Positions 4,001-20,281 of a stretch of 20,281 nucleotides of DNA are shown one piece after another. The notes below the pieces were generated by a model that was not told where the DNA came from, did no database searches, and worked only from the letters and a program-made list of their open reading frames with translations. The DNA is from a virus, in IMG/VR virus record IMGVR_UViG_3300037586_001996, positions 1-20,281 of that record, one strand, 5' to 3'. Numbering within the stretch: the stretch's first letter is position 1; every line of letters begins with the position of its first letter. The position numbers were made by a program, and so were the translations under genes.

Positions 4001-6559
4001 GAACTCACCCACAACGGCGGGCGTGCGGGCTGCGTCATAGTTGAATCGGGTGCCCGTTTTGCCGCGAGCAAGCCACGACTTTGTTCCTTCCCACATGCTG
4101 AGCCTTGGGGCGAACTTCTCTCCAGCCTCGAGTCCAGTGCGTGTTGCCAGCTGGATGATCTCGTCGGCAGTCCGCATGGTTTGGATGCGCCTGCCTTGTG
4201 GTTCCATGGCGGCTGACCGCGCCCGGCCTGCCCACTGGAGCTCAACCGAGTCGTTAATCATGTTGCGGATGACCCTGCCTTGAATCTCCGCATGAACCCG
4301 GTGGTAGTCAATCTCGTGCAGGGGCTTACCTTTCCTGAGCCCATTCACGATGCCGGTCCAGACCTTCGACTGCTTCACCGCTTCTGGGCCAAGCGCGGTG
4401 ACGAGGTGATTGGCGACAACGATGGGGTTCTTGAAGGCGCGAACCGGACCAACCGCATCGTGCTCCAGGATGCCGACCACCCGCTTGGTGACATCTGGGC
4501 CAATGGTGTCCCACGCCTTCTTCGTGAGGATGGTTCGCCCCTGAAGGACGGTCTCACCAAAGAGCCTGGGGGCCCAGTCGAGCAGGTCGCCACGCACAGA
4601 GTTGGACGCCACCATGGATAAGGCCTGGGTCTCGATGTCGATTGCTGGTGAGCCCTTCATGCCCACCCTGACCAGTTCGTTTGCATAGCGACCGGCTTGA
4701 GCGCCAATGGGGGTGATGGGCCCGCCGGCCTTGGTGGAAGTCGCCCCAATCTCAAGAGCGCGTTGAACCGGACGTGAGAGCTTTTTGGTTGAAGCCAGGA
4801 ACTGCATCTTCCCTACGTGCTTACGCAGTTCGTAGACCATCGTTTTCCGGCTGATGTTCCCAGCGTCGTCGGTCGCCTTTACCAGCGCGTTCTTTACGAT
4901 TGGCGACCGGGCGACCAGGCCAAGCTCTTTGCCGCTGACGTATCTGCCCGTGCCACCCGAGATGTGTCGAAGAGCCACCTGTGGAGTCACCGTGGTGTCG
5001 GCCACTGCGTCACCGAGAACCCGCGCTGTCTGCAGAGCGTTGGTCCCACCCTCGAACGTGTCCACTCCAGGCACGTTGTGCAAGACCTTGCGTGCCGCCC
5101 AATCTGCGTGCTTGGCCCGGAGGATGATCATGGGGTCAGCCATAGCCTCGGCCACCCGCGCTGCCTTGCTTGCGCCGTTGGCAAGAGCGGTGCCCCTGGC
5201 AAGGCGCTCGGTGTACCTGGCTGTAGAGGCCGCTGCCTTCAGTGGGGCGTGGGCCACCTTAAACGGCGCGGAGATGGGGATGGCAATCTCTGCCCCAAGC
5301 CCAATCCACCATGGGGCGTTGGGGAATCCAAGCTTCTCCCAGCTCTCTTGGTATCTGTCCAGGGTCATCAGATCGTCACCAATCATGCGGCCCTGAGCGA
5401 TGGAGTAGGCGATGTCCCGCAGGATGTCATCAGTCTCAATCGCTGGGCGTTCCTGGTCTGCCCATGTTCTTGTAGACGGCTGAAAGGGTAGGGGCAGGCC
5501 ACCGACATAGGGGGCGTCCTTGTACCAGTCGGGCGCCATCTGCCACATCTTGTATGCGCGGTCTTCAGGGTCAAGAGGCCTGCCACCTTCGTCCATCTCC
5601 CAAGTGGCCCACTGGGCGACCGGGTCAGCGATGAACCGCAGGGTTCCAACGAGGTCGCGCAGCCCTGTAGCGAACATGCTCTCAGTGATTGTGCCCGGGG
5701 CGTGCCGCTCCCCCTGTGTCTCTACGATGCTCTCCATCGCCCACTTAAAGGCTGGAGACGCGCCATCCTTTAGGGCTTGCCAGTTGTCGCGCTCCTCATT
5801 GTAGAGCTCTGGGGCGATGTCCTTGACCCACTCCATCCAAAGTTGCTGGCCAAGGGCCTCAATGTCGGTGGTGTTTGGGTCTGGGTCTACACCAATCTTG
5901 CGTCGGTAGACCCTGGTTGCTGACGCGATCCAGTCCCCCTTGTCGCGCTTGAGCCTCTCATGGTACTTGTCCATCTTCAGCAGTTCGCGCTGGTCCCCTT
6001 GGTATTCGTCTGGGATTAGCGGGTCGATCAGTTCAAGCTGCTCTTCACGCCACGCCCTGGAGCGGACAACCTCCTCGTTACGCTGCTTGACCCGTTCTGC
6101 TGACTGCAAAACCTGTGGCCTAAACGCCTCGCGAACAGCCTCGAGACCGCTGAGCTCTTCAATCCTCTTCTTCGAGGCGTAGGGCTGCAGGCGCTGATGG
6201 ACATCGACTGCCTTAGCGGTGGCCTTGGCTACAGAACGGCGGGCCTTTTCTGCTGCCGCACCTGGGTCAGTAAACCCCAACTGCATGTTGTTGAGGGTCT
6301 CCTGCTTGACGGCTTGCTCGTACAGGTTCTCCCTCTCCCTTTCGGGGGTGTATGGAAGCTCCATCTCGGGCAAGGCACCAGCCCTTGGGGCCGTGCCTGG
6401 GGTTGGTCCTGTGCGCTCAATCTTTGTGGGGTAGACCGGCCGAGCGGGGGGCGGGGGCTCCTCCACAATCATGGTGTTCTTGGCTGCGTCTGCCTGCTCG
6501 GAGCCGTACATCTCCCTAAAGTATTCGACACGCTCCAGCTGCTCGGGAGTCAGAGTCAT
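1082..6559 (-). CDS. Giant internal virion / DNA-ejection protein (1825 aa)
   Basis: This is the largest gene in the window. The protein is mostly helical, with a Pro-rich stretch near residues 35-60 and Ala/Lys/Arg-rich helices after it. A hydrophobic amphipathic segment begins with WWIGLG at residues 417-422. Near the C-terminus, from D1537, comes DYGAVHKAEKEVVSRY followed by VLFWAFRRQ. I recognise this from very large proteins of environmental phages, where an aromatic-rich (D)YG-E-PFxxFxR block recurs. No polymerase, nuclease or peptidase motif was visible. The start ATG shares a base with the stop of the transglycosylase-bearing gene upstream (TAATG). As third and largest gene in a small-middle-large series after the tail genes, it matches T7 gp16 in position. 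It would be packaged in the head and injected to form part of the DNA-translocation channel. Virion location is probable; the mechanism is inferred. Confidence 0.68.
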   Translation of the reverse strand: MTLTPEQLERVEYFREMYGSEQADAAKNTMIVEEPPPPARPVYPTKIERTGPTPGTAPRAGALPEMELPYTPERERENLYEQAVKQETLNNMQLGFTDPGAAAEKARRSVAKATAKAVDVHQRLQPYASKKRIEELSGLEAVREAFRPQVLQSAERVKQRNEEVVRSRAWREEQLELIDPLIPDEYQGDQRELLKMDKYHERLKRDKGDWIASATRVYRRKIGVDPDPNTTDIEALGQQLWMEWVKDIAPELYNEERDNWQALKDGASPAFKWAMESIVETQGERHAPGTITESMFATGLRDLVGTLRFIADPVAQWATWEMDEGGRPLDPEDRAYKMWQMAPDWYKDAPYVGGLPLPFQPSTRTWADQERPAIETDDILRDIAYSIAQGRMIGDDLMTLDRYQESWEKLGFPNAPWWIGLGAEIAIPISAPFKVAHAPLKAAASTARYTERLARGTALANGASKAARVAEAMADPMIILRAKHADWAARKVLHNVPGVDTFEGGTNALQTARVLGDAVADTTVTPQVALRHISGGTGRYVSGKELGLVARSPIVKNALVKATDDAGNISRKTMVYELRKHVGKMQFLASTKKLSRPVQRALEIGATSTKAGGPITPIGAQAGRYANELVRVGMKGSPAIDIETQALSMVASNSVRGDLLDWAPRLFGETVLQGRTILTKKAWDTIGPDVTKRVVGILEHDAVGPVRAFKNPIVVANHLVTALGPEAVKQSKVWTGIVNGLRKGKPLHEIDYHRVHAEIQGRVIRNMINDSVELQWAGRARSAAMEPQGRRIQTMRTADEIIQLATRTGLEAGEKFAPRLSMWEGTKSWLARGKTGTRFNYDAARTPAVVGEFMEATNARLVNVVADLNADIIAKQKGYLAKGLSREKAAEHAIQDIIDDAVKSVETNIKGAPKDTQTFLGWKDITAKFFGNSDITDAAIKLALGLDPKAGTIKGIKRLTPDNFRKFLGKLRKDSPLLQEAGLKTGPWAKKIGDPAASDNIFAAFAAFAAEQKAQKMVRAEVARLVETNPAFKVQLHHPLEYKSKETLKMIEKELKGHIPVRSTPGVAPGVPNPAVLKADRLTVFDKLLGEYAKRAKKAKPPADLAERVKRATALRALVASGKTLSDGALNQARRLINQEGKYGAARPPDLQYFHSAESAAKAVVKTTEDMVASSANNIMRNIAALMTSDQRLHLVKQAFERKIATNDLYAVPQDVNQMMGGVGQLLDDDFLRGMLKEAGVPKESLDVAAKALKDIMWKTIATDADIQAQGLLRSWGFTSGRKVTEIPVGLKPQIFGMEAGKDVAFMHGPDYADLAGRLQKAVASGGLDDALQSLRYTGNEEFVSLAWRSVHSLANTMRRVTISGMLGGVVTPITRFHGLNAFTAPAIAAMTSGWRGAGMALGVDLKANSLLNWAAVKFGAKGDEVVFLSDNGIKWTRRGLEDAIARNNVKFSQVSYEFHDAVIEGIMRTAKVDKNLAAVAKRTEVRKWIDPRNKNFWNQFAETTDNYWRKNIFIGALKEGKSELEAAKMAQNVLLDYGAVHKAEKEVVSRYVLFWAFRRQMFSEVIDELLRGGNRLRQMTAWHAYQHQHSRSWAYDKDYHKSRLYSVMGPTFDRVAQSGVYGPGNPGLESFNDIVNVSMWVMNWRQGIEPTAAGMWEGMSETMFTPEVRFLQEMINYGPDEKGAGYVPPHQVAALMRFGAWTDFTNFFQVEPVALDRRRPGDPTFHGMQFRFKNKKSYNEYLLYTYALTRLGIMRTVDDIAKTSIAAGAAPEGAEMKGLAEPSPMMHALNLQTAMNSSSEARIRLRALQKVERELRTMAREALP

Positions 6560-8754
6560 TACCTTTGTATCCGTCCAGCCATGGGCGTTATCCGCGCGGT
6601 TCCTGGCTCAAGAATCTCGTCAAAGACCTGCGCCTCGGTAGGGGTCAGTGGGGCCCCGGCGGCGGACCCCGAGGTTTGCATTGGTTGGGTGAAAAACGAT
6701 GGTAGCCCACCACCACCACCAGTGGCTGCCCCGGCAGGGTAGACAGCCCTCGGTTGCTGGAGGGCGGCAGTCATGCCTGCGGCGGCGCCATATCCAACCT
6801 GCGGAATAACCTGTGGTGGTGGAACCGTGGTGACAACCTGTTGTTGTGGAACCGTGGCGACAACCTGTGGTTGCGGGGCAGCAGCGACAACCTGTGGCTG
6901 TGGAGCCGGGGCCACCACCTGCGGTGGTGGGGCGGGGGCCTCGAGCCTTGCTTTTTGAGCCACGAATGCCGGGTGCTCGTCTGCTGTTTCCCATCCTTGG
7001 TTGCGCACGCTTGCCGCCTTGCCCAGGCGATAGCCGGGCTGGCCCAGTGCTGCGGGCTGGAAGACCGCTATGCTCAGGTCGTACTGGCTCTGAATCTTGG
7101 ACCCATCGGGGTCCCACATATCGAAGTATTGGCCGGCTAAAGCGACCTGCTCTTCTGCTGTCATGCTGAGCAGAGACTGCCTATTGAGTCCCATCTCACC
7201 AAGTGTTGTATCTGTGAACTGGATCAACCCGTGTGCGTCACCAAACTGGTTTGGCTCGGTGGGGTCAAACGAACCATCAGTCTCGGCGTTAATGAGGTTG
7301 GCCCACCAATAGGGGTGATGCCCCCTGGCTGTGGCCTCGCGCACAATGGTGTTGGCCAGCGTTGGCGAGATGCCGTAGGCGCTCTGAATCTCACCAGCCA
7401 ATGGGCCACCAAGCCCAGGCTCTGGCGGAAGGCCCGCCTCCTCAAGAAACTGTGGGTCCATACCAGTGAATCTTCCTGGGTCCTGCTGGTACTTCTCAAA
7501 GGGCATACCAACATCTCCTTCAGGTTCGACTCCAGGCGTGTACGCCATCGCGTCTTCTTCTTTGGTCATAAGGGCGAAGAGGTGGTCGAGCGCCTTGCTG
7601 CGTAACTCTTGGTCGCCGTCTGCCCACTGGCCGATGATGTTTGCCGCACCCGGAATGGTTCCAATGGCGCCATTCCTAAACATGTCGTAGACCTGCTGGC
7701 CCATCGTCGCGGCACTGCTCTTGTCTTTCGTTAGATCCTTGCCGCTCTTTGCGAGGGCACCACCACGAACGGACGCCTCAAACCGAATCTTCTCCTCGTC
7801 GGTGAGTCCCTCCATCATCATCTCGGTGGGCCCCTTGCTGATGGGCATGCCGTAGTAATACTCAGCCTGCCTGCGGCGAACGTCTCGCTCTGTGAAGGGC
7901 TCGGTAAGGGCTTGCCTCTGGCCTTGAAGCTTGGCAATCCTTGCGTCCACCCTGGCCAGGGAGTCCCTCCGCATCTGAAGCTGGTCGGGTGTAAGTTGCT
8001 CGTCTGGGGCAGCCGCTATGAGCGCAGCGTCAGCATTGAACAGCCCTCCGGGGCCCACCGCCCCAGTTACAAAGGCGTCCCTGTCGTACCGCTTGTCGTT
8101 ACGCAGGTTCTCTGGCAGAAGGTCCCAGGAATTTAAGCCGCGCTCAGCGAAAATTCCAGAGCTTGCGACTATGCGGCGAATCTCATCCTGCTTGATGTCT
8201 GCATCAGCAGCGAGAGCCTTTGAATAGATGAGCTCAATAAAGTCTACCCCCTCGTTTTGAAGCTGCTGTCTGCCCAGCTTTCCCGTGCCAAGGTACTGAG
8301 TAACTTCTGGGTCCGCGAACATGTCCTGTATCTGTCTTGTAAGCTTCTCCTCCCATCCCGTATAGCCAGCCGTGGTACCTCTAAGTGTGTCATCAAGCTC
8401 GGTCGCAAGGCGTGTCAGTGCAGTCCCAAGGGCTTGGTTGTCCCAGCGGTCTGTGTAGGCCTCCTCTGCCTTTGCGAGGGCGATTCTTCGCTCTGAGTGC
8501 TCCTTCTGTGCCCGATCTAAAGCCTTGTTCGCCTCCACCATTCGCTTGGTGGCTTGCTCTCCCGAGGTCACGCCGCTGTAGACCGAGGCTATTCCTTCCA
8601 GCCTCTTAATCTCGTCGCTAATGTACCCAGCCCGAACCTCGTTGCTCTTCCACAGGGCTTCGAAGTCCCGCCCTGCAGCGGTGTAGTCGTTGGCGGCACG
8701 CTGCATGTTGAGCGTCTGGTAGGTACCAAGGTAGTTCTGTGCGTTGGTTGTCAT
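6559..8754 (-). CDS. Internal virion protein with lytic-transglycosylase domain (731 aa)
   Basis: The first 330 residues are helical and charged (Ala, Glu, Arg, Gln), suggesting coiled coils. A Gly/Ala/Ile-rich stretch lies near residues 355-378. Residues about 455-560 resemble a lysozyme-like transglycosylase: LINAETDGSFDP contains the likely catalytic E491, and AHGLIQFTDTTLGEMG (507-522) matches the conserved G-L-x-Q-F block after the catalytic Glu in SLT-type enzymes. It would cut peptidoglycan glycan strands locally during DNA entry. Five 9-residue repeats ending in QVV or QVI (606-650) form a Pro/Gln-rich linker before a Gly-rich tail. The start overlaps the upstream stop by four bases (ATGA). 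In T7 this enzyme sits in the largest ejection protein, gp16; here it is in the middle one. The lack of a signal peptide and the position between two ejection-type genes argue against a free endolysin. Confidence 0.78.
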   Translation of the reverse strand: MTTNAQNYLGTYQTLNMQRAANDYTAAGRDFEALWKSNEVRAGYISDEIKRLEGIASVYSGVTSGEQATKRMVEANKALDRAQKEHSERRIALAKAEEAYTDRWDNQALGTALTRLATELDDTLRGTTAGYTGWEEKLTRQIQDMFADPEVTQYLGTGKLGRQQLQNEGVDFIELIYSKALAADADIKQDEIRRIVASSGIFAERGLNSWDLLPENLRNDKRYDRDAFVTGAVGPGGLFNADAALIAAAPDEQLTPDQLQMRRDSLARVDARIAKLQGQRQALTEPFTERDVRRRQAEYYYGMPISKGPTEMMMEGLTDEEKIRFEASVRGGALAKSGKDLTKDKSSAATMGQQVYDMFRNGAIGTIPGAANIIGQWADGDQELRSKALDHLFALMTKEEDAMAYTPGVEPEGDVGMPFEKYQQDPGRFTGMDPQFLEEAGLPPEPGLGGPLAGEIQSAYGISPTLANTIVREATARGHHPYWWANLINAETDGSFDPTEPNQFGDAHGLIQFTDTTLGEMGLNRQSLLSMTAEEQVALAGQYFDMWDPDGSKIQSQYDLSIAVFQPAALGQPGYRLGKAASVRNQGWETADEHPAFVAQKARLEAPAPPPQVVAPAPQPQVVAAAPQPQVVATVPQQQVVTTVPPPQVIPQVGYGAAAGMTAALQQPRAVYPAGAATGGGGGLPSFFTQPMQTSGSAAGAPLTPTEAQVFDEILEPGTARITPMAGRIQR
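6805..6939 (-). repeat. Five tandem 27-base repeats encoding a Pro-Gln-Val linker
   Basis: Read on the minus strand, five in-frame 27-base units encode APAPPPQVV, APAPQPQVV, AAAPQPQVV, ATVPQQQVV and TTVPPPQVI, residues 606-650 of the 731-residue protein. CAGGTTGTC recurs in the middle units and CAGGTGGTG or CAGGTTATT at the ends. The last three residues are nearly fixed while the first three drift. The array probably forms an extended flexible spacer between the transglycosylase domain and the C-terminal tail. Confidence 0.88.
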
Positions 8755-9734
8755 CGACCTCTCCTGCGACCGCCGGTCCTGGATTCTTGAACGCGCCTAT
8801 AAGCCTCGTCAACAGGGATGATGTCTCCTGTTATTTGGTCTTTCACAAAGGACCTCCCGCCCGGACCAGCCTGGTAGTCGAAGGCATATCTGGAGCCTAT
8901 GATTTCTGGTGGGCCAAACCGGTTGTCCCGCACGTAATCGCCGGTACCGGGGGCAAAGCGCGCCTTCGTAGGGGCTGCGGCCTCAAACTCAAAGCCTGGC
9001 TCTACTGCTGGTCCACCAATCGCCTGCAGGGCTGCGGCGGTTTCGGATTCAGTGGCGACAGCGGGAACCGAACTGGCCGCCGGCTTGGCGCCCTCAGCCC
9101 ACCGCACAGTCGATGCTGTGAACCTATCTTCAAGGCCCGCCCGCTTGGCCGCGCTTTGGATATCTTTTTGGCTAAGGTCTTGGTCTCCATCAATACCAAG
9201 CGACTTCTTCATGCGGCCCTGTTCTTCGCCCCAAAACCTATGCTGGCCCGACCACGCCTCGAAGGCTTGGCCAGCCTTGGTTGCCGCGCCGATGATGGCG
9301 AAGGTTTCCTTCAGCATCTGCTGCCGGCGGCTACGCCGGTACGTATCGAGCTCGTCCTGTTCCTTTTCTTCTTTGAGTTCAGCCTTCCTGCGCTTCTCCT
9401 CGATCTTCATCATGGGCATCTCGGTGGCGCGGGCCATCCGCTGCTCTGCCCCCTGAAAGCCTCGAGCCGTAGCGCCAAGGGCTCCACCCGCAGCCGCCGG
9501 TGTCAGCGCCTGGGCAAACCCCTGCTGTTGCTCCTGCTGCGACTGGAGGATGGGGGCGAGAAGACTCTGCCCGTAGCCGGTGACCTGCTCCTGGGCGGTA
9601 CGTGTGATGCCTGGCTCTTCCAACTCAGCAAGACGCTCACGCTGTTCTGGCCCAAACAGTTGGGTGGCACCAGCAAGTCTGCCTGCAGCGGGAGCAATGG
9701 CCCCAATGGCGGCCAGGGTTGGAACAATAGCCAT
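8751..9734 (-). CDS. Small ejection protein, gp14/gp7-like (327 aa)
   Basis: The N-terminus (residues 2-24) is a hydrophobic Ala/Ile/Gly/Pro-rich segment that could insert in a membrane but lacks a cleavage site. A Gln-rich stretch lies at about 60-75, then a Gly/Ala-rich stretch at 79-90. Residues about 108-140 are strongly charged (K, E, R) and look like a helix or coiled coil. The C-terminal half is low-complexity Ala/Pro then more ordered, ending in a basic tail (GGRRRGR). The start has a strong TAGGAG Shine-Dalgarno six bases upstream; the stop overlaps the next start by four bases. A small Ala/Gly/Gln-rich protein with a hydrophobic N-terminus and charged helix, just before two larger internal proteins, fits the first ejected proteins of T7 (gp14) and P22 (gp7). 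Direct similarity was not tested, so the name rests on composition and order. Confidence 0.6.
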   Translation of the reverse strand: MAIVPTLAAIGAIAPAAGRLAGATQLFGPEQRERLAELEEPGITRTAQEQVTGYGQSLLAPILQSQQEQQQGFAQALTPAAAGGALGATARGFQGAEQRMARATEMPMMKIEEKRRKAELKEEKEQDELDTYRRSRRQQMLKETFAIIGAATKAGQAFEAWSGQHRFWGEEQGRMKKSLGIDGDQDLSQKDIQSAAKRAGLEDRFTASTVRWAEGAKPAASSVPAVATESETAAALQAIGGPAVEPGFEFEAAAPTKARFAPGTGDYVRDNRFGPPEIIGSRYAFDYQAGPGGRSFVKDQITGDIIPVDEAYRRVQESRTGGRRRGR

Positions 9735-9742
9735 GTCGTCTC

Positions 9743-10405
9743 CTAGATGTAGAAGCCTTCAAAGGACACACCCCAAGCCACCAGTTGGCACTTGGCCACA
9801 TCGGTGGTGGTGGTGCTTAGGCCGAGAGCGTAGGTTCCAGCGGTCGTGATGTGGCGCATGGAAAACCCGCCCATCATCCTGTTCTGCTGAGACCTGTGCT
9901 GAGAATCGTAGTCGTTGATGTCATCGGTAATCTGTTGCCTGGTGTTGTCCTTCGTTCCCGTGATCGGGTCGTCCCAGTAGACGAAGAACTTCGCAGAGCC
10001 GCCAGTAGCCGTGTTCTGGTCGTCCTCGATAAACGGGAAAGCCCACCACTGGAAGAACACGGTCATGGGCCTGCGGACCTCGATGTCCACCGTGGTCTGT
10101 GGGACGTGTGCCCTCTGGGCCGTGCTGATGACACCACTGTTGTACTGGCTGGCGTAGGTGAACATGCCAGCTGGGTAGGAATGGACGTGGCCACCGAACA
10201 CCCCAGACACGAAGTGGGCCCGGTTGATGATGGGCTCGTAGTCTCCACGCATGATGTGGTTGGTCTCCACCCACGCCGTGTCGCTCTTCATGGCCGAGCG
10301 TTCCAGTTTCGACAGGTAGCTCTTCAGATCGTCGAGGTTGCCCTGCACGTCGGTCGCGAGGACGACATCGCCACCCACCCATGTCTTCGCCGGGGTGTAG
10401 GCCAT
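9743..10405 (-). CDS. Fibre-like virion protein C (220 aa)
   Basis: This is the third of three consecutive small structural genes. Its N-terminus, TWVGGDVVLATDVQGNLDDL (residues 8-27), matches a pattern common at the start of phage fibre and tail proteins (T-x-x-x-G-x-x-L-x-x-x-D-x-N). The rest is beta-rich, with many Trp, Tyr, Phe and His (for example FFQWWAFPFIED), and ends in a strand-like QLVAWGVSFEGFYI. No membrane segment or enzyme motif was seen. The start ATG shares one base with the stop of the upstream gene (TAATG), and the stop lies 8 bases before the ejection gene start. It is probably an oligomeric fibre, spike or tail-appendage protein; the receptor-binding role is inferred. The first member is separated from the capsid genes by the adaptor and nozzle genes, which favours the tail over the head. 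Confidence 0.6.
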   Translation of the reverse strand: MAYTPAKTWVGGDVVLATDVQGNLDDLKSYLSKLERSAMKSDTAWVETNHIMRGDYEPIINRAHFVSGVFGGHVHSYPAGMFTYASQYNSGVISTAQRAHVPQTTVDIEVRRPMTVFFQWWAFPFIEDDQNTATGGSAKFFVYWDDPITGTKDNTRQQITDDINDYDSQHRSQQNRMMGGFSMRHITTAGTYALGLSTTTTDVAKCQLVAWGVSFEGFYI

Positions 10406-11220
10406 TACCCACCACCCATGTGTAAGGCATTCATGTTGATCTGCGCAATCACCACCGAGTCGGAGTCCCAGTCGGTGTCGTGATTGAGTTGGCTGTTTTC
10501 AGACCCGCCTTGGTAGGACTTGTAGACCCCGGAGATCATCAACCGAAACCCAGAAATGGTGATAGTGCTGACGATATTCGACTTGTAGTACCAGGCCTGC
10601 CTAAACGAGGTCTTGTCTAAGGTCAGCCCCTGGTGGGAGGCGGATGCCACCGTGTACATCCTCCAGGCGTGGGGGATGATCATGAGCCCATGAGTGTCGG
10701 CAGAGTCTGACACGTCTCGAGAAACAGACAGGTCTGTGGTGTTGGGCACCTCGGTCCAGCCGCCCACGTTCCACTGTAGCCATGCTGCCCAGAAAGCCCC
10801 CGTTTGACTGATGGCGGTATTGGTGATGTCGCCAAAGCTCTGGTCCTTTACAACCAGGTCCCAGTAGACGCGAATGACATCGCCGTATTTCACCTCAAGC
10901 GGTGAAGCGCTAAGGTCCATGGTGTTTTCGCCACCTGCGCCTGTATGGCTAAGGTGAACCGGCCCAGTGTTGGAAGCATAGTTCTGCGCATCGGTCGAGG
11001 CGTTGTTGTCCATCGACCCGTAGGCTTTGAGGACGTAGCCCTGGTCGCCGCCCGTGCCGTATCTGAACTCAAGGTTGGGCTGGTCAATGGCTTCGTTGCG
11101 GAGGTTGGTCGCGTCGATGTTGCCAGACGTAACCGTCTCGAGGTCACTGAACTTCTCGTTCAGGTCGTCGGTGGTAATGGTCGTCCCACGCTCCACGCTC
11201 TTGCTGTCCGCTCGAGACAT
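10405..11220 (-). CDS. Fibre-like virion protein B (271 aa)
   Basis: I start this gene at ATG 11220-11218 rather than the in-frame GTG at 11229. The ATG has a proper Shine-Dalgarno and gives the one-base stop/start overlap (TGATG) seen at several neighbours; for the GTG the same sequence would be too close. The N-terminus reads GTTITTDDLNEKFSDL (12-27) then GNIDATNLRNEAI (33-45), a typical phage fibre opening in which a short helix is followed by an ID-x-x-N-L-x-x-x-A-I turn. The body is beta-rich with many Ser, Thr, Asp, Trp and Tyr, and the C-terminus is a strand, VVIAQINMNAL, plus a Gly tail. It is probably a trimeric appendage protein related at its N-terminus to the genes on both sides. 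The exact role is unknown. Confidence 0.62.
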   Translation of the reverse strand: MSRADSKSVERGTTITTDDLNEKFSDLETVTSGNIDATNLRNEAIDQPNLEFRYGTGGDQGYVLKAYGSMDNNASTDAQNYASNTGPVHLSHTGAGGENTMDLSASPLEVKYGDVIRVYWDLVVKDQSFGDITNTAISQTGAFWAAWLQWNVGGWTEVPNTTDLSVSRDVSDSADTHGLMIIPHAWRMYTVASASHQGLTLDKTSFRQAWYYKSNIVSTITISGFRLMISGVYKSYQGGSENSQLNHDTDWDSDSVVIAQINMNALHMGGG

Positions 11221-11849
11221 CAGCGCCACCTTCCAATCGCGAGGAGTTGCCCACCCCCATAGTACATGACGGGCACATCGGTAGAACTAACGGCTGTGGC
11301 GTGTGTCGAGTCTATTGGCGCGGCCACTCTATACTCGATGGCAACGGTGCCGTCTCCACCCGCAATGGGGAAGTCGCACACAAGGAAGTAGTTGGTGGCA
11401 GCCATGTAGCAGGGCCCACCCTCACATACCGTCTGTCCGTTGTACTTCAGCCTGAACTCAACGAACTGCGGGTTCATCTGGTCATCGACCTTGAGCAGTG
11501 CCACCCAGCACTTGAACTCGAGGTGCATCATGCCCTCGTGCAGTCCAGCAAGGGACACCTCTACTGCCGGATAAAACCCCCCAAAGTACTTCTCGTAGGT
11601 CAGCCCGTAGAACTGCGGGTCGTCGGCACTTCCACCTCGACTTGGGGCCCCGAACTCTACGTCCTCTACGAAGACCTTGCAGAAAGCGTTCTGCTGCACC
11701 ATCGGTGGGGTGATGGCGCTCACCGGCAGGCTGGTGCGGTCAACGCCAGCGTTAGCCCAGCCGCGCAGGGAGTCGTACTCGCGGTTGAATCCGTCTGCAG
11801 TGGGCAGGTTCTTCGACCTCTGCTCCCGCTCTGTCCACCTCTTCGCCAT
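11220..11849 (-). CDS. Fibre-like virion protein A (209 aa)
   Basis: This is the first of three consecutive fibre-like genes. After a basic start (MAKRWTEREQRSKNLP), residues 18-28 read ADGFNREYDSL and residues 36-46 VDRTSLPVSAI, aligning with TDDLNEKFSDL and IDATNLRNEAI in the next gene. The body is beta-rich and aromatic (for example YGLTYEKYFGGFYPAVEVSL) and ends in a Gly/strand segment, GGGQLLAIGRWR. It has four cysteines, an unusual number for the neighbourhood. The start overlaps the stop of the nozzle gene by one base (TGATG), with AGAGGG as Shine-Dalgarno. Directly following the nozzle gene, it could be the tail-proximal adaptor on which the later fibres assemble; this is speculative. 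Virion protein is likely, specific function unknown. Confidence 0.6.
   Translation of the reverse strand: MAKRWTEREQRSKNLPTADGFNREYDSLRGWANAGVDRTSLPVSAITPPMVQQNAFCKVFVEDVEFGAPSRGGSADDPQFYGLTYEKYFGGFYPAVEVSLAGLHEGMMHLEFKCWVALLKVDDQMNPQFVEFRLKYNGQTVCEGGPCYMAATNYFLVCDFPIAGGDGTVAIEYRVAAPIDSTHATAVSSTDVPVMYYGGGQLLAIGRWR
11226..11234 (-). promoter_or_regulatory. Shine-Dalgarno that decides the start of fibre-like protein B
   Basis: On the minus strand GGAAGGTGG is followed by five bases (CGCTG) and then ATG at 11220. The upstream GTG alternative at 11229 is itself inside this purine-rich stretch, so it would have no spacer. This favours the ATG and shortens the protein by three residues. Confidence 0.6.
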
Positions 11850-14122
11850 CAGACCCTCTTGCCTTGGACAATCTTGGTGCCCTCTGGGGATGTGAGCTCG
11901 AGGGCGTAACCAACGAGGACCACGTCGTTGGTGGTCTGAATCTCAAACTGGAAGTTGGAGCACGAACCCTGGCTGATGGGGTAGCGAAACTCTGTGAGCC
12001 TCTCCTCTTCCCAGAGACCTAAATCTGTCTTGATGGAATCGTAGATGCCCTGGTCGGGGGCGTCCGGCATCTGTGGCCTCGCGGCTGGTGCTGCCGTCCC
12101 CACGTAGTCGTAGTCCTTGAAGTAGGTCATGGGGATGGTGTTGTCCCCACCCGTGAGTGCGTAGAGGTAGACGAAGTGGACCTTCTTCTTCTTGTTGGGG
12201 TCTCCAAAGTCGTGCCACTTGGACCGGTATCTGGCGATGGGCGCGACGTTGTCCACGAGGACAATCTGCCCTTGCTGCTTGCCGGCCTCCGACGAGACCT
12301 CTGCCTTCTTGCTGAGCGTCCTGCGTCCCGTGATGACAAACAGGCCAGCCTGACCCGTCTCGCTGGTCTGGCCCTCTACATGGCCAAACACGATGTCCCC
12401 ATCGAAGGTGGTAGACAGAGCTCCCACAGGGAAGTTCTCACGCACCGACCACGCCATCTTGTCGAGGTGCAGAACGATGCCCAGGTTGGGGCGATCGTGT
12501 CCGTCTGCAGCGAAGTAGCAATGCCACTCCTTCCACTTGTGGCTGTAGCAGGCGACCGCACGAGGTAGAGCGTCTTTGTTCATCCGCTCGATGGTCTTCA
12601 TGATGGGGTCGGAGATGCGCTTAATCTCAACCACGGCCCCACCCTCGAAGCCACCATGCACAACGTACACCCCGTCGTTGGCCAGAAAGATGACACCCAG
12701 GTCTGGGATGGTGTTGATGGCGTTGGCGGCTGTAGTTCCAACCGACTGGCTTAGCGGGGAGATGCGGAAGTCAGGGTAGTTGCCCGAGACGTAGTCCACA
12801 GAGCGCTGACGCAGGATGAGCAGGTAGTTGTAGTGGGCGTGAAACCCGGTGATGCCCCCGCCCTCTCTGGTGCCGACATCGGCGTAGTCGGTAGCCCTAA
12901 ACGTGTCTGGAAAGCCGGGGTTGCTCCAGAACACTGCGGTCTCATTTGAGGAGCCCCCATCAATGAACAGGCAGTCCTTGAAGATGGAGCAGAACCTCGC
13001 GCTCGTAGCCGGGAAGATGGTGGAGTCGCCATCCACAGGCGCAAGGGTGATCTGCTGGTTGTCTCCAAGATTGTCGAAGTAGAAGGTCTCGGTGTTGTTG
13101 GTGACCTGACCCACGTAGTAGTAGACCTCTGCCGCCTCGGTGCCATCGCCCAAGTCTTTGGTTCTGTAAATCTTGCGGGCTATCGTCCCCACCGGACCAG
13201 CTGGAATCTCAAGGCCAACGATCCAGCGTTTGCCTCCGAACTCTGGGTGGTATACGGTTACATCGCCCTCACCCGGAGCAATGTTGAGGGACTCTGGCTG
13301 GGACCAGACAACAAGGCCGCTGGCCTGAGAGACGGGGGATTCAGAACCGGCGTTGTTGATGAAACTCACCTTGTAGCGGTAGCTTGAGAAGATCTGTGCG
13401 ACGGCAAAAGTGCCGTCTTCGGCCATCTTCCTCGACGGTTTCTCGTCTCCCAAACCAATGGCGTTCCAGGCGCTCTCCCAGTCCAGGGTGCGGTAGGTGA
13501 GGTTGAATGGAAACCCAGAGAGGGGCGCCAAGCTTTGCTGATTGCCTCTCGCCCAGATGGCTATCGACCCACCGAACTGAGCCCCGTCTTCAGGCCTGGT
13601 GTGAACACCCCAGGGTGTTGGCGATGGCGGAAGGGACGCCCAGCCCACGTCATAGACGGGTGCCGTGGGTGAGGTGATGGACCCGCCGTGGGGCCAGGCT
13701 CCGTAGCGCACCGGCTTGTCGTTACCGTTCACCGTGTAGAGGAACCTGCCGTAGGGCGCGTAGGACGCAGGCGCCTCTGTAGCTGTTGGTGTCGTCCTCA
13801 GGACATCTAAGGCCTCAATCGCGCGGCTAGAGCCATAGTCCTTGAGGTAGTAAAGGGTGCCCCCCGACTCAAACACAACCCACTGTTGAGCGCCTTGGTG
13901 TCGCGACCAAATGAACAGTGAGTCGATTCTCCCGAGCGAATCGAAGGGGGCAAAGGTTCCACCAGTACTGGAGAGGTAGCGCTCGTACCCGATGCGGTTG
14001 TCCCAGCCCGAGGTCTGGTTGTGGACCGTGAAGTTCACAATCTCGGTGGCAGCCTTGTCTGCCTGGGGGATTAGCTCCGAGACGCCGCCAAGGGGGGTTT
14101 GCTCAAACCGCTTGCCTTTCAT
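11849..14122 (-). CDS. Tail nozzle-like protein, T7 gp12 / P22 gp10 type (757 aa)
   Basis: The N-terminus (FEQTPLGGVSELIPQADKAA then EIVNFTVHNQTSGWDNRIGY) matches the usual opening of podoviral nozzle or tail-tubular-B proteins. A Fibronectin-III-like segment lies at about 245-355 (YRYKVSFINNAGSESPVS, later KIYRTKD and ETFYFDNLGD). After it come blocks typical of these beta-propeller-like proteins: CSIFKDCLFIDGG, VFWSNPGFPDTF, LLILRQRSVDYVSG, and LGVIFLANDGVYVVHGG. The protein would form the distal part of the short tail through which DNA leaves. It starts one base after the stop of the adaptor gene, and its own stop overlaps the next start, so the three are probably translated in series. The length is in the range for this family. 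Alternative: another large tail hub protein. Confidence 0.72.
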   Translation of the reverse strand: MKGKRFEQTPLGGVSELIPQADKAATEIVNFTVHNQTSGWDNRIGYERYLSSTGGTFAPFDSLGRIDSLFIWSRHQGAQQWVVFESGGTLYYLKDYGSSRAIEALDVLRTTPTATEAPASYAPYGRFLYTVNGNDKPVRYGAWPHGGSITSPTAPVYDVGWASLPPSPTPWGVHTRPEDGAQFGGSIAIWARGNQQSLAPLSGFPFNLTYRTLDWESAWNAIGLGDEKPSRKMAEDGTFAVAQIFSSYRYKVSFINNAGSESPVSQASGLVVWSQPESLNIAPGEGDVTVYHPEFGGKRWIVGLEIPAGPVGTIARKIYRTKDLGDGTEAAEVYYYVGQVTNNTETFYFDNLGDNQQITLAPVDGDSTIFPATSARFCSIFKDCLFIDGGSSNETAVFWSNPGFPDTFRATDYADVGTREGGGITGFHAHYNYLLILRQRSVDYVSGNYPDFRISPLSQSVGTTAANAINTIPDLGVIFLANDGVYVVHGGFEGGAVVEIKRISDPIMKTIERMNKDALPRAVACYSHKWKEWHCYFAADGHDRPNLGIVLHLDKMAWSVRENFPVGALSTTFDGDIVFGHVEGQTSETGQAGLFVITGRRTLSKKAEVSSEAGKQQGQIVLVDNVAPIARYRSKWHDFGDPNKKKKVHFVYLYALTGGDNTIPMTYFKDYDYVGTAAPAARPQMPDAPDQGIYDSIKTDLGLWEEERLTEFRYPISQGSCSNFQFEIQTTNDVVLVGYALELTSPEGTKIVQGKRV

Positions 14123-14123
14123 C

Positions 14124-15395
14124 TCAACCGCTCGTGGTCAGTGGGCCAAAGCGGTTGGGCCGGAAGGTGGACCCAATCCCGTAGCCAGCCTTGACCCAGC
14201 GACGGCTAATCTCTGAGAGGTAGCGCTGCTCCATCTTCAGTATCTCGAGCTCAGCCTTGCGCCTGTAGACCTCAGCCTGGACGGTGTTGTCGTGCTTACT
14301 GAAGACATCGACGAGCGCCTTGTACGCCAAGTACTGGTGGTGGGCTCCCGGCATCTCCGGTGCGTCCGAGTCCTCGAACAGCATCTCTGGGGCAGAGATG
14401 TACCGAATGGTCACCGAGATATCAGAGGCCGGGCGCGGGTACAGACGAACCCTCCGGTAGTAGCCACCGTTGTTGTTCAGCCGGTCTCCAAGCTCCCAGT
14501 TGTCTCCATAGACCCCGGCCGAAACGCTGGTGTCTGATTCAACAATCTCAGCGCCAAACTTCCGGTAGGCCTTGTAGGGGCTGAACTTGATCCAGGCCTG
14601 CTTCTTGAATCCACTTGCGTCTGAACCGGACACCGTGGTGAGGTCTGGCAGGGTGACCGATAGCGTTGGATACGCTTCTGTGGTGGTAAGGACGACGGCT
14701 GAAGACTGGGACGAGTACCTGTTCCCGTAGTTCAGGGTGTAGACAAAGGTGTAGGTGCCGGCTGGCCAGCCACTACCGGCGGTTCCGCCTGTTGCTGCCA
14801 CCGGCGGCTTGATGGGTGACTGGACGTTGAAGTCGTCGTAAGGAATCCAGTCTGTGGGCGTTCCGGTCTCGTCGAGGTTGATGTTGAACCACTCGTCTTC
14901 CATGCGAGTCAGCGGGGTGTAGCGCCCAGGCTCTGACGATGGGGTGGTGGTTCTGTCTCGCTTGCCTATCTGCAGTACAGAGATGCAGTTGACTGGCAGG
15001 TCCATGTACCGGTACTTGACCTTGAAGGTGTCGGTTCCGCTCACGGTGGAGCCGGTGAACAGTTGCTTAAGGTTTGCCGACGTAGACGTGATGACGCTGG
15101 CTATCTCGTACTCGGCGTCTTGAATCTCAATGATCTGTCCTTCCATTGCATCAATGAAGAAGGACGAGCCCGTGCTGATGTCTCTCGTAGAGTTGGTCGT
15201 TGTCCCGTTCGTAGCGGTGTCGTCAGCCCTGGCGATCTTAACGACTTCGTTCTGGGCGAAGCTCCAGGGCTTCTCAGCAAACAACTCGAGATACACGTTG
15301 TTGATGATGCGGGTCAGTTCATCATCGTAGGTGGTCGTATTCGGATCGTAGTCCGTGATCGACTTGATGAGCCCACGTATCTCTGCCAGGCGCAT
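14124..15395 (-). CDS. Head-tail adaptor (T7 gp11 / P22 gp4-like) with Ig/FN3-like insert (423 aa)
   Basis: The N-terminal 50 residues (MRLAEIRGLIKSITDYD, then DDELTRIINNVYLELFAEKPW) are the helical start typical of podoviral adaptor proteins that bind under the portal. The C-terminal 120 residues also fit: SDISVTIRYISAPEMLFEDS, DAPEMPGAHHQYLAYKALVD, and a long helix with VYRRKAELEILKMEQRYL. Between them, residues about 200-295 (from GWPAGTYTFVYTLNYGNRYS, W210) look like a beta-sandwich of Ig or FN3 type inserted in the adaptor core. The ATG has GGGGTGA upstream. It follows the decoration gene after a 54-base gap with a stem-loop and comes just before the nozzle gene, the standard adaptor-nozzle order. 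Adaptor is likely; the insert type is judged only from sequence pattern. Confidence 0.72.
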   Translation of the reverse strand: MRLAEIRGLIKSITDYDPNTTTYDDELTRIINNVYLELFAEKPWSFAQNEVVKIARADDTATNGTTTNSTRDISTGSSFFIDAMEGQIIEIQDAEYEIASVITSTSANLKQLFTGSTVSGTDTFKVKYRYMDLPVNCISVLQIGKRDRTTTPSSEPGRYTPLTRMEDEWFNINLDETGTPTDWIPYDDFNVQSPIKPPVAATGGTAGSGWPAGTYTFVYTLNYGNRYSSQSSAVVLTTTEAYPTLSVTLPDLTTVSGSDASGFKKQAWIKFSPYKAYRKFGAEIVESDTSVSAGVYGDNWELGDRLNNNGGYYRRVRLYPRPASDISVTIRYISAPEMLFEDSDAPEMPGAHHQYLAYKALVDVFSKHDNTVQAEVYRRKAELEILKMEQRYLSEISRRWVKAGYGIGSTFRPNRFGPLTTSG

Positions 15396-15449: not shown

Positions 15450-15869
15450 CTAAAGGACTCGGAACCAGTACAGCTTAATGGTAGCGGTGTCTTCATCTTC
15501 GAGCGCCGTTGCAACAACCCGGTCGGTTGCCGCTGCGGTGTATACGACGACAGCACCGGAAGCCCCGGTGGTAAGGCTGTCTCCAGCCGTCCCGCCAGTA
15601 CCCGTGATCTTCACGCCCTCGATGTAACCGCCAACACACACCCGAACGGTGGCGCCGGTCGCGACAGTCTCAAGAGCAACACCAATGGCGAGGCCATCGG
15701 TGGTGCCTTGGGCGACATACTGTACCTTCTTCTCCCCAGTCTGGGTCGAATCCAGCTTTACGACTTGTCCAGCAGTAACGGTGCCATTGGCCACGAACTC
15801 CCAAACGTCTGCGTTTGCGCCAACCGTAATGGCCAGACCCTTACCGTGATGTAGGTTTAGTTGAGCCAT
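15450..15869 (-). CDS. Capsid decoration protein, DUF2190-like (139 aa)
   Basis: This small Gly/Thr/Val-rich protein follows the major capsid gene after three bases. It shows the pattern I know from DUF2190 capsid decoration (cement) proteins: TVTAGQVVKLDS, then GLAIGVALETVATGATVRVC, then GGYIEGVKITG and a G-D-x-L-T-T-G-A-S-G-A-V block. The fold is a small all-beta barrel that sits on the outer surface of the capsid and stabilises it. No signal peptide or membrane segment is present. GGAGG about nine bases before the ATG, inside the end of the capsid gene, gives efficient re-initiation. Position and composition agree well; the remaining doubt is DUF2190 versus another small cement family. Confidence 0.75.
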   Translation of the reverse strand: MAQLNLHHGKGLAITVGANADVWEFVANGTVTAGQVVKLDSTQTGEKKVQYVAQGTTDGLAIGVALETVATGATVRVCVGGYIEGVKITGTGGTAGDSLTTGASGAVVVYTAAATDRVVATALEDEDTATIKLYWFRVL

Positions 15870-15872
15870 GGT

Positions 15873-16889
15873 TTAGGCCTCCGCGTTGATGAGAATGCCC
15901 TGCGAGGCAAGGTGGGATGCCACCAACTGACAACGAACGTAGATGTTTGCGGCCCGGCTGGCGTACCCCGAGACACTCTCGAAGTCGTCCAACTGGAACT
16001 TGGCATCGCTGTCGTAGTACAGGTGCAGCAGGCTGGTGTTGAGGAAGTACATCGACATCTTGTTGGAGGCACCGCTACCGGTGAACCCAAGGTTGGGCTC
16101 GATGTACATGAGCGCAGAGTTGTAGGCCAGAGCCAACTTGCCGCTGTCGAGTTGAGTCTCGGTAGCAGACATGTACCGCTCGTTCTGCTGCAGGTCGTTC
16201 TTGTACTCCTCATAGGAAAGCGGAGAAGCAAGAATGAGGTTCATGCTGCCTTCAGGCGCGTAGGTCTGGGCCTGAATCATCAGTTTGCTCATTGCCTGCG
16301 AGCCATTGGCGTCAAAGTCACCGCTGGCTGTTGCCACTTGGTTCTGCCAGGAAGCAGCGAAATCCGACTTTACGAGTCCACCAACAGTGTTCACCTGTGG
16401 TCCCGTAAACGGAGTCACTTCCTCGAACCAACCCGTTGCAGCATCAAGCCCGTTGAACGACTCAAGGTCGGTCAGGATGGTGGAGGTGCCAGCAATCGCC
16501 TGCTTCTCAAACTCGCGCTTGAGCATGCCCATGACGGACTTGAGCCGGGCTTCCGCAATGCGGATGATGGCTCGCTCGCCCTTGTTGGAGAGCTCTTCCT
16601 TCTTGGTGATGACGATGGGTGCGCAGAAGTCTGCCCACTCAAACTCGGCAGTGCGCAGGGGGTCTGCGACACCAAGTCCGACGGCTTCGTAGCCGGTAGT
16701 CAGTTGGGTGATGTTGGAGTGTTCAGCGAGAATGACGGGGTGGTTGACCTTGGAACCGCCATCGACAGTGATCACGCCACCCTGAGACTCGATTTGCTCG
16801 AGTAGGGGCGTGGTGCGATGGAGTTGGTCAGCCGCCTTGTCCCGCAGGATCCGTAGCGTGGAGCTAAGGATGTCATTGGAAATGGCCAA
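15873..16889 (-). CDS. Major capsid protein, HK97-fold type (338 aa, TTG start)
   Basis: The 338-residue protein has the order expected for a major capsid protein. An N-terminal helix (DILSSTLRILRDKAADQLHR) leads into a beta region, then the long spine-helix area with ITKKEELSNKGERAIIRIAE and LKSVMGMLKREFEKQAIAG. The C-terminal part (FLNTSLLHLYYDSDAKFQLD, later ANIYVRCQLVASHLASQG) looks like the terminal beta/alpha domain. The start must be TTG at 16889-16887: an in-frame TAG lies nine bases upstream, a good AGAGGTG Shine-Dalgarno precedes the TTG, and no early in-frame ATG exists. Its neighbours (scaffold upstream, decoration protein downstream) support the assignment. It is preceded by the only large gap in the window, with a promoter-like sequence. 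HK97 fold is inferred from family knowledge. Confidence 0.82.
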   Translation of the reverse strand: MAISNDILSSTLRILRDKAADQLHRTTPLLEQIESQGGVITVDGGSKVNHPVILAEHSNITQLTTGYEAVGLGVADPLRTAEFEWADFCAPIVITKKEELSNKGERAIIRIAEARLKSVMGMLKREFEKQAIAGTSTILTDLESFNGLDAATGWFEEVTPFTGPQVNTVGGLVKSDFAASWQNQVATASGDFDANGSQAMSKLMIQAQTYAPEGSMNLILASPLSYEEYKNDLQQNERYMSATETQLDSGKLALAYNSALMYIEPNLGFTGSGASNKMSMYFLNTSLLHLYYDSDAKFQLDDFESVSGYASRAANIYVRCQLVASHLASQGILINAEA

Positions 16890-17035: not shown

Positions 17036-17269
17036 CTATTTTCGTCTTGTGGTTTTTTTGCCTTTCTTGCGGTTCGTCGTTCTGGAGACCACCCTCAGGT
17101 TGCTCCGCTTGTTGCTCCCGCCCTTGGACAGGGGCTTCTTGTGGTCTACCTCTCGCGGGTCGCCCTTCTTCAGGCCAACCTTTGTCCGGGCCCGACCGGT
17201 AGCCGCCCGGTCTGCCCTCTTGGACGCGCCCCACTTCTTGTACTCCCTCTTGTAGTTGCGCTTAGGCAT
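17036..17269 (-). CDS. Very basic HNH-like small protein (77 aa)
   Basis: The C-terminal half carries D42-H43, P46-L47, G50-G51, N57-L58 and N66-R67, the D-H-x-x-P-L-x-x-G-G-x-N-L-x-N-R layout of small phage HNH-family proteins. The last metal-binding His of classic HNH is an Asn here (HNN type), and there are no zinc-binding CxxC pairs. Thirty of 77 residues are Lys or Arg against five acidic ones, so it should bind nucleic acid strongly. Its start overlaps the scaffold gene stop by one base (TGATG). Two readings are possible: a minimal homing or packaging-linked nuclease, or a former nuclease kept as a structural DNA-binding protein of the head. Its position between the scaffold and capsid genes favours a role in head maturation or packaging, but this is inference. 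Confidence 0.68.
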   Translation of the reverse strand: MPKRNYKREYKKWGASKRADRAATGRARTKVGLKKGDPREVDHKKPLSKGGSNKRSNLRVVSRTTNRKKGKKTTRRK

Positions 17270-18120
17270 CAGCGCTTACCCTTCTCGCCTTGGGCCTCGT
17301 ACCACTTGTAGATGCCGTAGGCGTCCAGGCCCTTGGGTGGCCCAATGCGGTCACCGACCTTGGCTCCACCACCGATCTTGAGGCCCGCTTCCTTCATGGC
17401 GTCCTTGTAGCGCTGGTTCTCCTCAACCATCTTGACCTGGCCCTCTTGAAGGTGCTTGCCTTTGACGGCCCAGTACGCTGTCTCAAGAGTCATGTGCTCG
17501 TTCTTCATCAGCATGTCGCGGACGTTGTCACGAATGGCCACGTTCTCTTTCACGTCGGGGTGCTCTGAGACAAAGGCCTGCAGACGAGACCGGGTCTGTT
17601 GGAGCTCGTACTCTTCCTGCACTGGCTTGTAGAGGTCCGCGACCTTCTTTGCTACAGCGTGCTCGATGTGCTTGACGAAGCTGTCTGGGTCGTAGGGGTC
17701 GAACTCACCAACGGTCTGGTCTGCGGCCTGCTGGATGGTCTTGTAGGCATCGGACTCGAGCATTGCTTTGCGCTGTGCGTCTAGGTCTCTGCGCTGCTCA
17801 GCTATCGCCTGCATCTTATGCGTGTAGTCCTTGCGCATGTTTGCCATCAGCTTCTTGGCGTCGTCTGGCAGGCTCTTGAGCGTGGCGTCTACATCAATGC
17901 CCTTGTGGTTTTCCTCAGAGGCGAGCAGCTCATCCTTCTTGGCTGCCTCGATGAGGTCTTCTATTTTGCCTTCGTAGTCATCTGCGGCGCGCTCTGGGCT
18001 GGCTTCAGCTTCAGGCGCGGCAGGCTCAGCAGGCTTTGCTTCCTGCTGCTCTGGTGCCGCTGCTGGTTCTGCCGGTGCTTCCGCACTCTGTGGTTGCTCT
18101 TGGGTTGGGGCATTGTCCAT
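17269..18120 (-). CDS. Capsid scaffolding protein (283 aa)
   Basis: The protein has the usual layout of podoviral scaffolds. The first 50 residues are disordered and rich in Ala, Pro, Glu and Gln. A long charged helical region follows (KIEDLIEAAKKDELL, then KLMANMRKDYTHKMQAIAEQ and RRDLDAQRKAM). Further helices lead to a C-terminus ending in a short basic stretch (YKWYEAQGEKGKR), as in P22 and phi29-type scaffolds, where a basic C-terminal end binds the coat protein. It has no cysteine and no enzyme motif. GGAG lies close before the ATG at 18120. It sits upstream of the major capsid gene with only the small HNH-like gene between. It would guide capsid shell assembly and leave before or during packaging. 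Role is well supported by composition and order; sequence similarity was not tested. Confidence 0.75.
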   Translation of the reverse strand: MDNAPTQEQPQSAEAPAEPAAAPEQQEAKPAEPAAPEAEASPERAADDYEGKIEDLIEAAKKDELLASEENHKGIDVDATLKSLPDDAKKLMANMRKDYTHKMQAIAEQRRDLDAQRKAMLESDAYKTIQQAADQTVGEFDPYDPDSFVKHIEHAVAKKVADLYKPVQEEYELQQTRSRLQAFVSEHPDVKENVAIRDNVRDMLMKNEHMTLETAYWAVKGKHLQEGQVKMVEENQRYKDAMKEAGLKIGGGAKVGDRIGPPKGLDAYGIYKWYEAQGEKGKR

Positions 18121-18713: not shown

Positions 18714-19124
18714 CTACAGAATCTCGTGGGCCGGGAACGTCTCAGCGATGGCTCGTCCCTGGTCGCCGTCGAACTTCTTCACGTTGTCGTTGTATTTGGA
18801 CACGGTCTTGTCGTGGGCCTTGGCCTCATCGACCGAGCTGGTCATGCGGGACTCGACGTATCCATTGCCCATGTCGGAGACGGGCACGAGGTCCCGCTCC
18901 TTGAGGAGCTTGTCCTTGTGCTGGCTGCTCTTGACCTCACAACCCAGGCCCCGGTCGAAGTAGGCGTGGCTGTCTCCCCACTTGGCCTTGGTGTCGGCGG
19001 GAAGGGACACGATTCTCCCCGCGATGCCATTGCACAGGTCGCATTGGACATGGTCAACGCGGTCCTTGAGGCTGAAGATCTCTTCAGTGACGTGGCCCTG
19101 GGGACAGCGGTACTCGTACATCAT
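18714..19124 (-). CDS. FmdB-like zinc-ribbon protein (136 aa)
   Basis: The first 32 residues form a zinc-ribbon: YEYRCPQGH (C7, H11) and VQCDLCNG (C28, C31), with the Y-E-Y-x-C opening of FmdB-family proteins. In the usual family the first pair is CxxC; here it is C-x3-H. The rest is a charged region without further pattern (one more Cys in RGLGCEVKSS), much longer than the 60-80 residues of typical FmdB proteins. The start ATG overlaps the portal gene stop by four bases (ATGA), so the two are probably translated together. Zinc-ribbon proteins of this type occur near phage terminase and portal genes, but their role there is not known to me. It may bind DNA, RNA or the portal. Confidence 0.7.
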   Translation of the reverse strand: MMYEYRCPQGHVTEEIFSLKDRVDHVQCDLCNGIAGRIVSLPADTKAKWGDSHAYFDRGLGCEVKSSQHKDKLLKERDLVPVSDMGNGYVESRMTSSVDEAKAHDKTVSKYNDNVKKFDGDQGRAIAETFPAHEIL

Positions 19125-20281
19125 GAGGGCAGGACCCTACCGATTTGCTGAGGAGATGGAAGTGCCCCAGGAGCCAGACCGAGTTGCTCGTCCCGGACAG
19201 CTTCGGCGGCTGGCGGTAGGGTGGGAGGCATTTGGGCGCTGCCTCCTGGGGCGACGGCTTGGGCAGGTTGCTCAGGAAGGAACGATTCGGGAAGCTGCAG
19301 CAACCTCACGACCTCCTTCCTTAAAGCATCGACTGGGACGCCGAGTTGGGACAGGAGATTCACAGCCTGCAACAACTCTATCTTGCGCTGGGCTTCGGAT
19401 ACTGGTGTGGACCCAGAGTCCTGCGCGAAGTAAGCGAAATCCCCGTCAAGATCACGGGATGCCAACACCTCTGCCTTGCCGTCAAGAACGACGAGGTCGT
19501 TACCTCCATCCAAGTATAGGGAAGTCATTCGAATGTATGCCTTGGCCATGGTCTCGATGGCGCTGTCTCGCTCGCGAGCAAGCCTGCCAATCTCTGACGT
19601 GGAGTAGCTGGCCAGGGCTGTAATCTCTGTGGCTGTGGCTCTGCCGCCCGCTGGGTTGCCTCGGGTGAACGGCGCGAGAACGCTGCCTCGGTCCAGGTCG
19701 TCTTGGACCTGCTCGATGTAGCGCTGAATCTCTGGGGGCGTGGGCGTATGGGGCAGGGGAATGATGGAGCCGCCAATCTCCTGGCCCGGTGAGAGCTCTA
19801 CCTCTACGAACTCGCCGTCGATGCCTTGAGCCAGCTTGGCCATGCTCTCGGAGTCGAACACGCCCTTCTCCACAATCCACTGACGCGCGGCCTTACGGAC
19901 AGCGTTGGCCTGGAACGTCCGCGAGATGTTGATTTCCTGAATCTGGTCGTAGACCCTAGCGAGCGCCGAGTACCCACGCAGGGGGTCGTCGGGCAGCCTG
20001 GAGTAGTAGATGGGAACAATGGGGATGACCGGGTGGTCGTCAGGCGTGCGAAACGGGATGGTCTCGATCTTGGTGGGCCCCTTCTCGGTCTCGATTTCAA
20101 TGCCGTCGTACAGCCAGGACTTGCCGTCCTTGTAGTTGGGGCTCCATACGAGCATCCGGTCACTCTGCAGGTCCCAGACCTCTACGACTTGGACGAAGTG
20201 GTCGAACGGGTCTTCGCTCAGAGCCGCGTCGTTATCCGCATCGCTTCCCCCGAGAATCGGCCCAGTATCAATATACCTTTC
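19121..20281 (-). CDS. Portal protein, C-terminal 386 residues (5' end cut by window edge)
   Basis: The frame is open from the right edge; the first internal ATG (20155) is not the start, because in-frame codons upstream of it encode a plausible portal segment (for example DHFVQVVEVWDLQSDRM). Residues after this include RGYSALARVYDQIQEINISR and ARQWIVEKG, then AGGRATATEITALASYSTSE and IGRLARERDSAIETMAKAYI, the long helix pattern of podoviral portals. The C-terminal tail is rich in Pro, Ala and Leu (LPEQPAQAVAPGG). The protein forms the ring at the capsid vertex through which DNA enters and leaves. It is the first of the head-assembly genes in the window and overlaps the zinc-ribbon gene by four bases. 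Complete length cannot be given. Confidence 0.8.
   Translation of the reverse strand, partial: ERYIDTGPILGGSDADNDAALSEDPFDHFVQVVEVWDLQSDRMLVWSPNYKDGKSWLYDGIEIETEKGPTKIETIPFRTPDDHPVIPIVPIYYSRLPDDPLRGYSALARVYDQIQEINISRTFQANAVRKAARQWIVEKGVFDSESMAKLAQGIDGEFVEVELSPGQEIGGSIIPLPHTPTPPEIQRYIEQVQDDLDRGSVLAPFTRGNPAGGRATATEITALASYSTSEIGRLARERDSAIETMAKAYIRMTSLYLDGGNDLVVLDGKAEVLASRDLDGDFAYFAQDSGSTPVSEAQRKIELLQAVNLLSQLGVPVDALRKEVVRLLQLPESFLPEQPAQAVAPGGSAQMPPTLPPAAEAVRDEQLGLAPGALPSPQQIGRVLPS

Follow-up and report, generated by a model that had tools for sequence, protein, structure and literature searches.

The window analysed here, the 20,281-base virus record IMGVR_UViG_3300037586_001996 (positions 1 to 20,281), carries a podoviral late operon on its minus strand (Table 1). 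Within this operon, three successive minus-strand genes, overlapping by 1 base each, encode the proteins referred to as A, B, and C; the length of B is 271 aa when counted from an ATG and 274 aa from an in-frame GTG. Each protein has an 11-residue motif near its N-terminus: ADGFNREYDSL in A (residues 18-28), TDDLNEKFSDL in B (residues 17-27), and ATDVQGNLDDL in C (residues 17-27). The motif is followed by VDRTSLPVSAI in A and by IDATNLRNEAI in B. An initial annotation of this DNA had reported the three open reading frames, the motif at these residues, and an ID/VD turn behind it in the first two proteins, all of which were found on checking the ORFs and sequences. It had also placed the trio between nozzle-like and ejection-like genes, and this agrees with the gene neighbourhood, in which ejection-type genes come after the trio. 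The product of the gene at 8751-9734 had no family match in PHROGs or Pfam.

Table 1. Late genes of the window and features within the trio and the nozzle-like protein.
Feature	Position	Strand	Basis
Portal-like gene, partial	19121-20281	-	
Scaffold-like gene	17269-18120	-	
Major capsid gene	15873-16889	-	podoviral capsid NF033394, E 4.8e-48
Decoration-like gene	15450-15869	-	
Adaptor, SU10-type	14124-15395	-	SU10_adaptor PF24175, E 1.9e-6, 28.9 bits against a cut-off of 27
Nozzle-like tail protein, 757 aa	11849-14122	-	phrog_3287 virion structural protein, 9e-12; also phrog_5107
Candidate fibre-dock loop of nozzle protein, residues 690-707, DQGIYDSIKTDLGLWEEE	12002-12055	-	putative, from alignment and SU10 analogy
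Appendage protein A, 209 aa	11220-11849	-	ORF; 31-41 non-redundant orthologues, the nozzle gene immediately preceding in every case
Anchor of A, residues 1-55 (W5, motif 18-28, VDRTSLP turn)	11685-11849	-	profile match to B and C anchors
Appendage protein B, 271 aa, body most variable of the trio	10405-11220	-	ORF; AlphaFold2 and PDB matches
Anchor of B, residues 1-55	11056-11220	-	profile match; AlphaFold2 helix
Appendage protein C, 220 aa	9743-10405	-	ORF; AlphaFold2 and PDB matches
Anchor of C, residues 1-55	10241-10405	-	profile match; AlphaFold2 helix
First gene past the trio, probably for an ejection/internal virion protein	8751-9734	-	position; Q-rich, charged sequence

A small HNH endonuclease ORF (17036-17269; PF01844, E 3e-5) is located between the scaffold and capsid genes, and an FmdB-type zinc-ribbon protein (18714-19124; TIGR02605, E 9e-5, under the cut-off) is encoded between the portal and scaffold genes. 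A protein similar to the latter occupies the equivalent portal/scaffold place in a related locus (L001, 1067-1594). A transglycosylase-like virion protein at 6559-8754 has PQPQVVA-type tandem repeats in its C-terminal part, and beyond the ejection genes lies an open-ended, fibre-like repeat protein (2-664) that lacks the anchor motif and is possibly a separate long fibre.

Searches of Pfam, PHROGs, and NCBIfam gave no match for A, B, or C: neither a family naming any of them a fibre, nor a tail fibre chaperone or other known non-fibre family, which is the kind of match that the initial annotation had regarded as evidence against its reading. No match was found among PDB sequences, and a tblastn search with one member of each trio family and the nozzle protein found none among 50,697 deposited phage records.

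Compared as single sequences over residues 1-50, A and B align with a score of 46 (0/2000 shuffles as high), and the comparisons of A with C (1210/2000 shuffles as high) and B with C (169/2000) are not significant. Since C could not be linked to the others as a single sequence, relatives were collected and family profiles were compared. Relatives were gathered through searches with the capsid, A, and C, and all loci were scanned with iterated HMMs for the trio. The major capsid protein has at least 259 matches in IMG/VR, from which 80 loci were taken, and one further contig came from a Maricaulis MAG. Profiles of the N-terminal 55 residues, built from approximately 31 orthologues per family and aligned with hhalign, match in register in all three pairs (P 3e-5 for A/B, 3.4e-4 for A/C, and 4.7e-4 for B/C), whereas the body profiles do not match (P 0.03-0.25). 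None of 150 column permutations and none of 30 body slices reached any of the three observed scores, although one A/C permutation approached its observed score (19.4 versus 20.8). Together, the profile matches and controls indicate that the motif belongs to a real common anchor of approximately 55 residues, homologous across the trio. The profile-profile alignment that the initial annotation had proposed therefore bears out its claim of a common N-terminus followed by different bodies. In the named-phage capsid relatives Mx8, Mx9, BUCT555, Ruegeria 45A6, and Bradyrhizobium ppBjS10J-1, the inspected proteins encoded after nozzle-like genes are without the anchor.

AlphaFold2 monomer models cover B and C, each on a 31-sequence alignment, and are of moderate confidence (mean pLDDT 69.8 and 71.4, respectively). 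In both models a helix (residues 17-31 in B, 17-32 in C) falls exactly on the motif and is followed by a beta jelly roll. The best-covered PDB relatives of the two jelly rolls are TNF-like trimeric lectins, although the query-side TM-scores reach only 0.37-0.43: the B model matches the TNF-like lectin PLTL (9ib7; E 2e-4, TMt 0.67), and the C model matches the BC2L-C N-domain (2wq4; E 1e-3, TMt 0.67, rmsd 4.1), as well as the central tail fibre of lambda, the latter at E 5.5e-4 with a low TM-score. PLTL and the BC2L-C N-domain share the jelly-roll fold with the predicted heads, but they are bacterial lectins without a phage anchor, at 7-9% identity. In BFVD, the B model has 181 matches at E<=1e-3 (best E 1.5e-14), many or most of which are unnamed or uncharacterised viral (phage) proteins. 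The B and C heads are thus predicted to be of one fold class, a TNF-like jelly roll, despite unrelated sequence; the earlier claim that the bodies are unrelated stands for sequence, in which the profiles do not align, but not for the predicted fold of B and C. TNF-like jelly rolls normally trimerise and often bind glycans.

The trio occurs in an uncultured, mostly marine group of short-tailed phages. In 114/114 IMG/VR-type loci uncut by a contig end, the gene order is nozzle-A-B-C, with one copy of each and the nozzle gene directly upstream, and no loss or duplication of A, B, or C was found; these 114 loci include repeat fetches of the same contig, the number of distinct C-type proteins being 70. 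Eight additional loci have a partial trio, and all of them end at a contig edge. The gaps between the genes in relatives are mostly -1 or -4 bases (overlaps). Because all three genes are present together, once each, and in fixed order, they encode complementary parts and not alternatives. Of the two possibilities raised initially, alternative or complementary binding heads, the first is therefore not supported and the second is. By their co-occurrence, A, B, and C are co-required components of an obligate set.

The constant anchor and the heads have diverged to different extents. For instance, in two related loci with 95% identical nozzle proteins (L117 and L120), A, B, and C are 97-100% identical over residues 1-60, and identity over the remainder of the proteins is 73% (A), 40% (B), and 73% (C). 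Silent sites drop too (third positions in A, for example, from 0.95 to 0.53), and the DNA identity profile of L117 4130-6224 versus L120 8001-10104 is three-toothed, with one drop per gene. Such a pattern would be expected if the sequence behind a constant anchor had recombined or belonged to alleles that separated long ago. Across 90 related pairs, the median anchor/head identity is 0.85/0.67 for A, 0.82/0.53 for B, and 0.79/0.64 for C, with 0.87/0.79 for the nozzle control in the same pairs. The anchor-head contrast (A 0.18, B 0.29, C 0.15, versus 0.14 for the adaptor control) is clearly above the nozzle, adaptor, and capsid controls for B only, and is modest for A and C. A conserved virion anchor with a variable distal domain, by which tail fibres and receptor-binding proteins are recognised, is accordingly clear for B and modest for A and C, and bodies that diverge behind a constant N-terminus are what the initial annotation had suggested looking for in related genomes. 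The idea that unrelated bodies are swapped onto the anchor was considered and rejected: the bodies found at a given position all belong to one full-length orthologous family specific to that position, and the variation seen is strong allelic divergence and not domain exchange. B is the likeliest specificity determinant of the trio, judging from the divergence of its head.

Overall, A, B, and C are quite probably paralogous short podovirus tail appendages that work as one receptor-binding set; we infer that they are located on the virion, trimerise, and bind a glycan or other receptor. The anchor of approximately 55 residues, consisting of a docking peptide, a 15-residue helix, and a turn, would hold each chain on the tail beside the nozzle protein, and would be followed by a compact beta head, which in B and C would be the TNF-like jelly roll. 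The anchors would be constrained by the tail, the heads would change with the host (B most), and the three heads would probably act jointly in holding on to the host cell.

As a kind, receptor-binding fibres with an anchor are familiar; as far as these searches show, a strict three-member paralogous set is undescribed, and a full-text literature search found no heterotrimeric fibre paralogues. In the Kuravirus SU10 the tail genes have similar neighbours (adaptor, nozzle, short fibre, ejection), and the short fibre, gp16, has an N-terminal helix and is attached to a loop of the nozzle subunit gp17 whose aromatic residues are in pseudo-threefold arrangement (PMC9509320). However, SU10 has a single gp16 gene, encoded before the nozzle gene and forming a homotrimer, whereas here three genes follow the nozzle gene. 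The gp16 head resembles T4 fibre tips and not a TNF-like lectin, and hhalign gave no meaningful alignment of gp16 residues 1-60 with the trio anchor. In the T7-like cyanophage P-SCSP1u, the N-terminus of the fibre gp28 is docked between nozzle and adaptor (PMC10575957); this phage differs in having one fibre gene, a homotrimer, and another N-terminal fold (a jelly-roll barrel plus helix).

In many relatives, an aromatic motif occurs three times in a row near the C-terminus of the nozzle protein, for example as VFDLG-VWDTA-VWEDP in locus L026. The first (F/Y) and third (W) positions of this repeat are kept and the second varies by clade, the middle aromatic being lost in the clade of the window. 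Each subunit of the SU10 nozzle has a loop with three tryptophans in a pseudo-threefold arrangement, which holds one fibre trimer (PMC9509320). By analogy, the loop at residues 690-707 may be the fibre dock. The two loops were not aligned by hhalign, for which the best match was the neighbouring propeller part (P 0.065). Among the relatives, the second motif of the nozzle loop carries an aromatic residue where W9 is missing from C and, for the most part, a non-aromatic one where W9 is present, with exceptions in L062, L111, L113, and L117-L124. A compensatory change between W9 and the second nozzle motif was not retained, since the tree shows no more than 3-4 changes and no test was significant.

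There is about an even chance that the appendages are three independent homotrimers, with their own sites on the nozzle or adaptor and different receptors. Homotrimers are the usual state of phage fibres, and TNF-like proteins are usually trimers (PMC12914763), the TNF-like heads of lectins being homotrimers, as is the C-terminal TNF-like knob of the Sf6/HS1 tail needle (PMC3741392). Additionally, each head family is well separated. However, only one obvious docking loop was found, and independent adhesins would be expected to be lost or duplicated at times, which is not seen in the 114 loci.

One loop and three paralogues suggest another arrangement, namely a single A:B:C heterotrimer (1:1:1) per pseudo-threefold loop of a nozzle subunit, in which each chain would sit on its own motif and three different heads would be presented at once. 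C1q chains assemble as a heterotrimer in this 1:1:1 manner. The constant presence of one of each in fixed order, the overlapping genes, the same anchor across the trio, and the same predicted head fold class in B and C would all be accounted for, as would a single nozzle loop with a threefold aromatic repeat, comparable to the SU10 loop that holds one trimer (PMC9509320); moreover, the three chains of the P-SCSP1u homotrimer already make non-equivalent contacts (PMC10575957). Nevertheless, this arrangement is rather unlikely. Co-divergence of the heads is uninformative as proof, since the heads covary with one another (partial r 0.38-0.46) no more strongly than with the adaptor (0.39-0.55), and neither the few W9-associated changes nor the hhalign comparison with the SU10 loop speaks for it. 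Additional docks could lie in the adaptor, which far exceeds its family profile in length, and the phage fibres in the cited literature are all homotrimers.

It is improbable that one of the trio is a central tail needle or tip plug of the Sf6 type and the other two are fibres. The needle of the P22-type tails of Sf6/HS1 is likewise a phage tail protein with a TNF-like knob (PMC3741392), SU10 has its needle gene after that for the nozzle, and the interval from the nozzle gene to the ejection genes contains no further candidate for a needle. However, the Sf6/HS1 needle is a single-gene protein with a long coiled coil and no sequence match to the trio was found; the B and C models have one helix of approximately 15 residues only, and the anchor is identical in kind across all three proteins. 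Finally, that the motif is merely compositional, a short amphipathic helix in unrelated tail or capsid accessory proteins, would fit the lack of a single-sequence match for C and of a curated family linking the trio, but is very unlikely, given that the profiles match in register in every pair, with scores above those of all permutations and body slices, and that both models place a helix at the same residues.

As paralogous appendages forming one receptor-binding set, A, B, and C probably serve host recognition in this uncultured phage group, of which the capsid protein has at least 259 relatives in IMG/VR, and B is where host specificity should first be sought. The strict occurrence of one copy of each, all with the same kind of anchor, also raises the question of whether phages build heterotrimeric fibres. 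One complete cassette (L085) comes from a contig that was assigned by binning to a Maricaulis sp. MAG, which hints weakly that part of this phage group has an alphaproteobacterial host.
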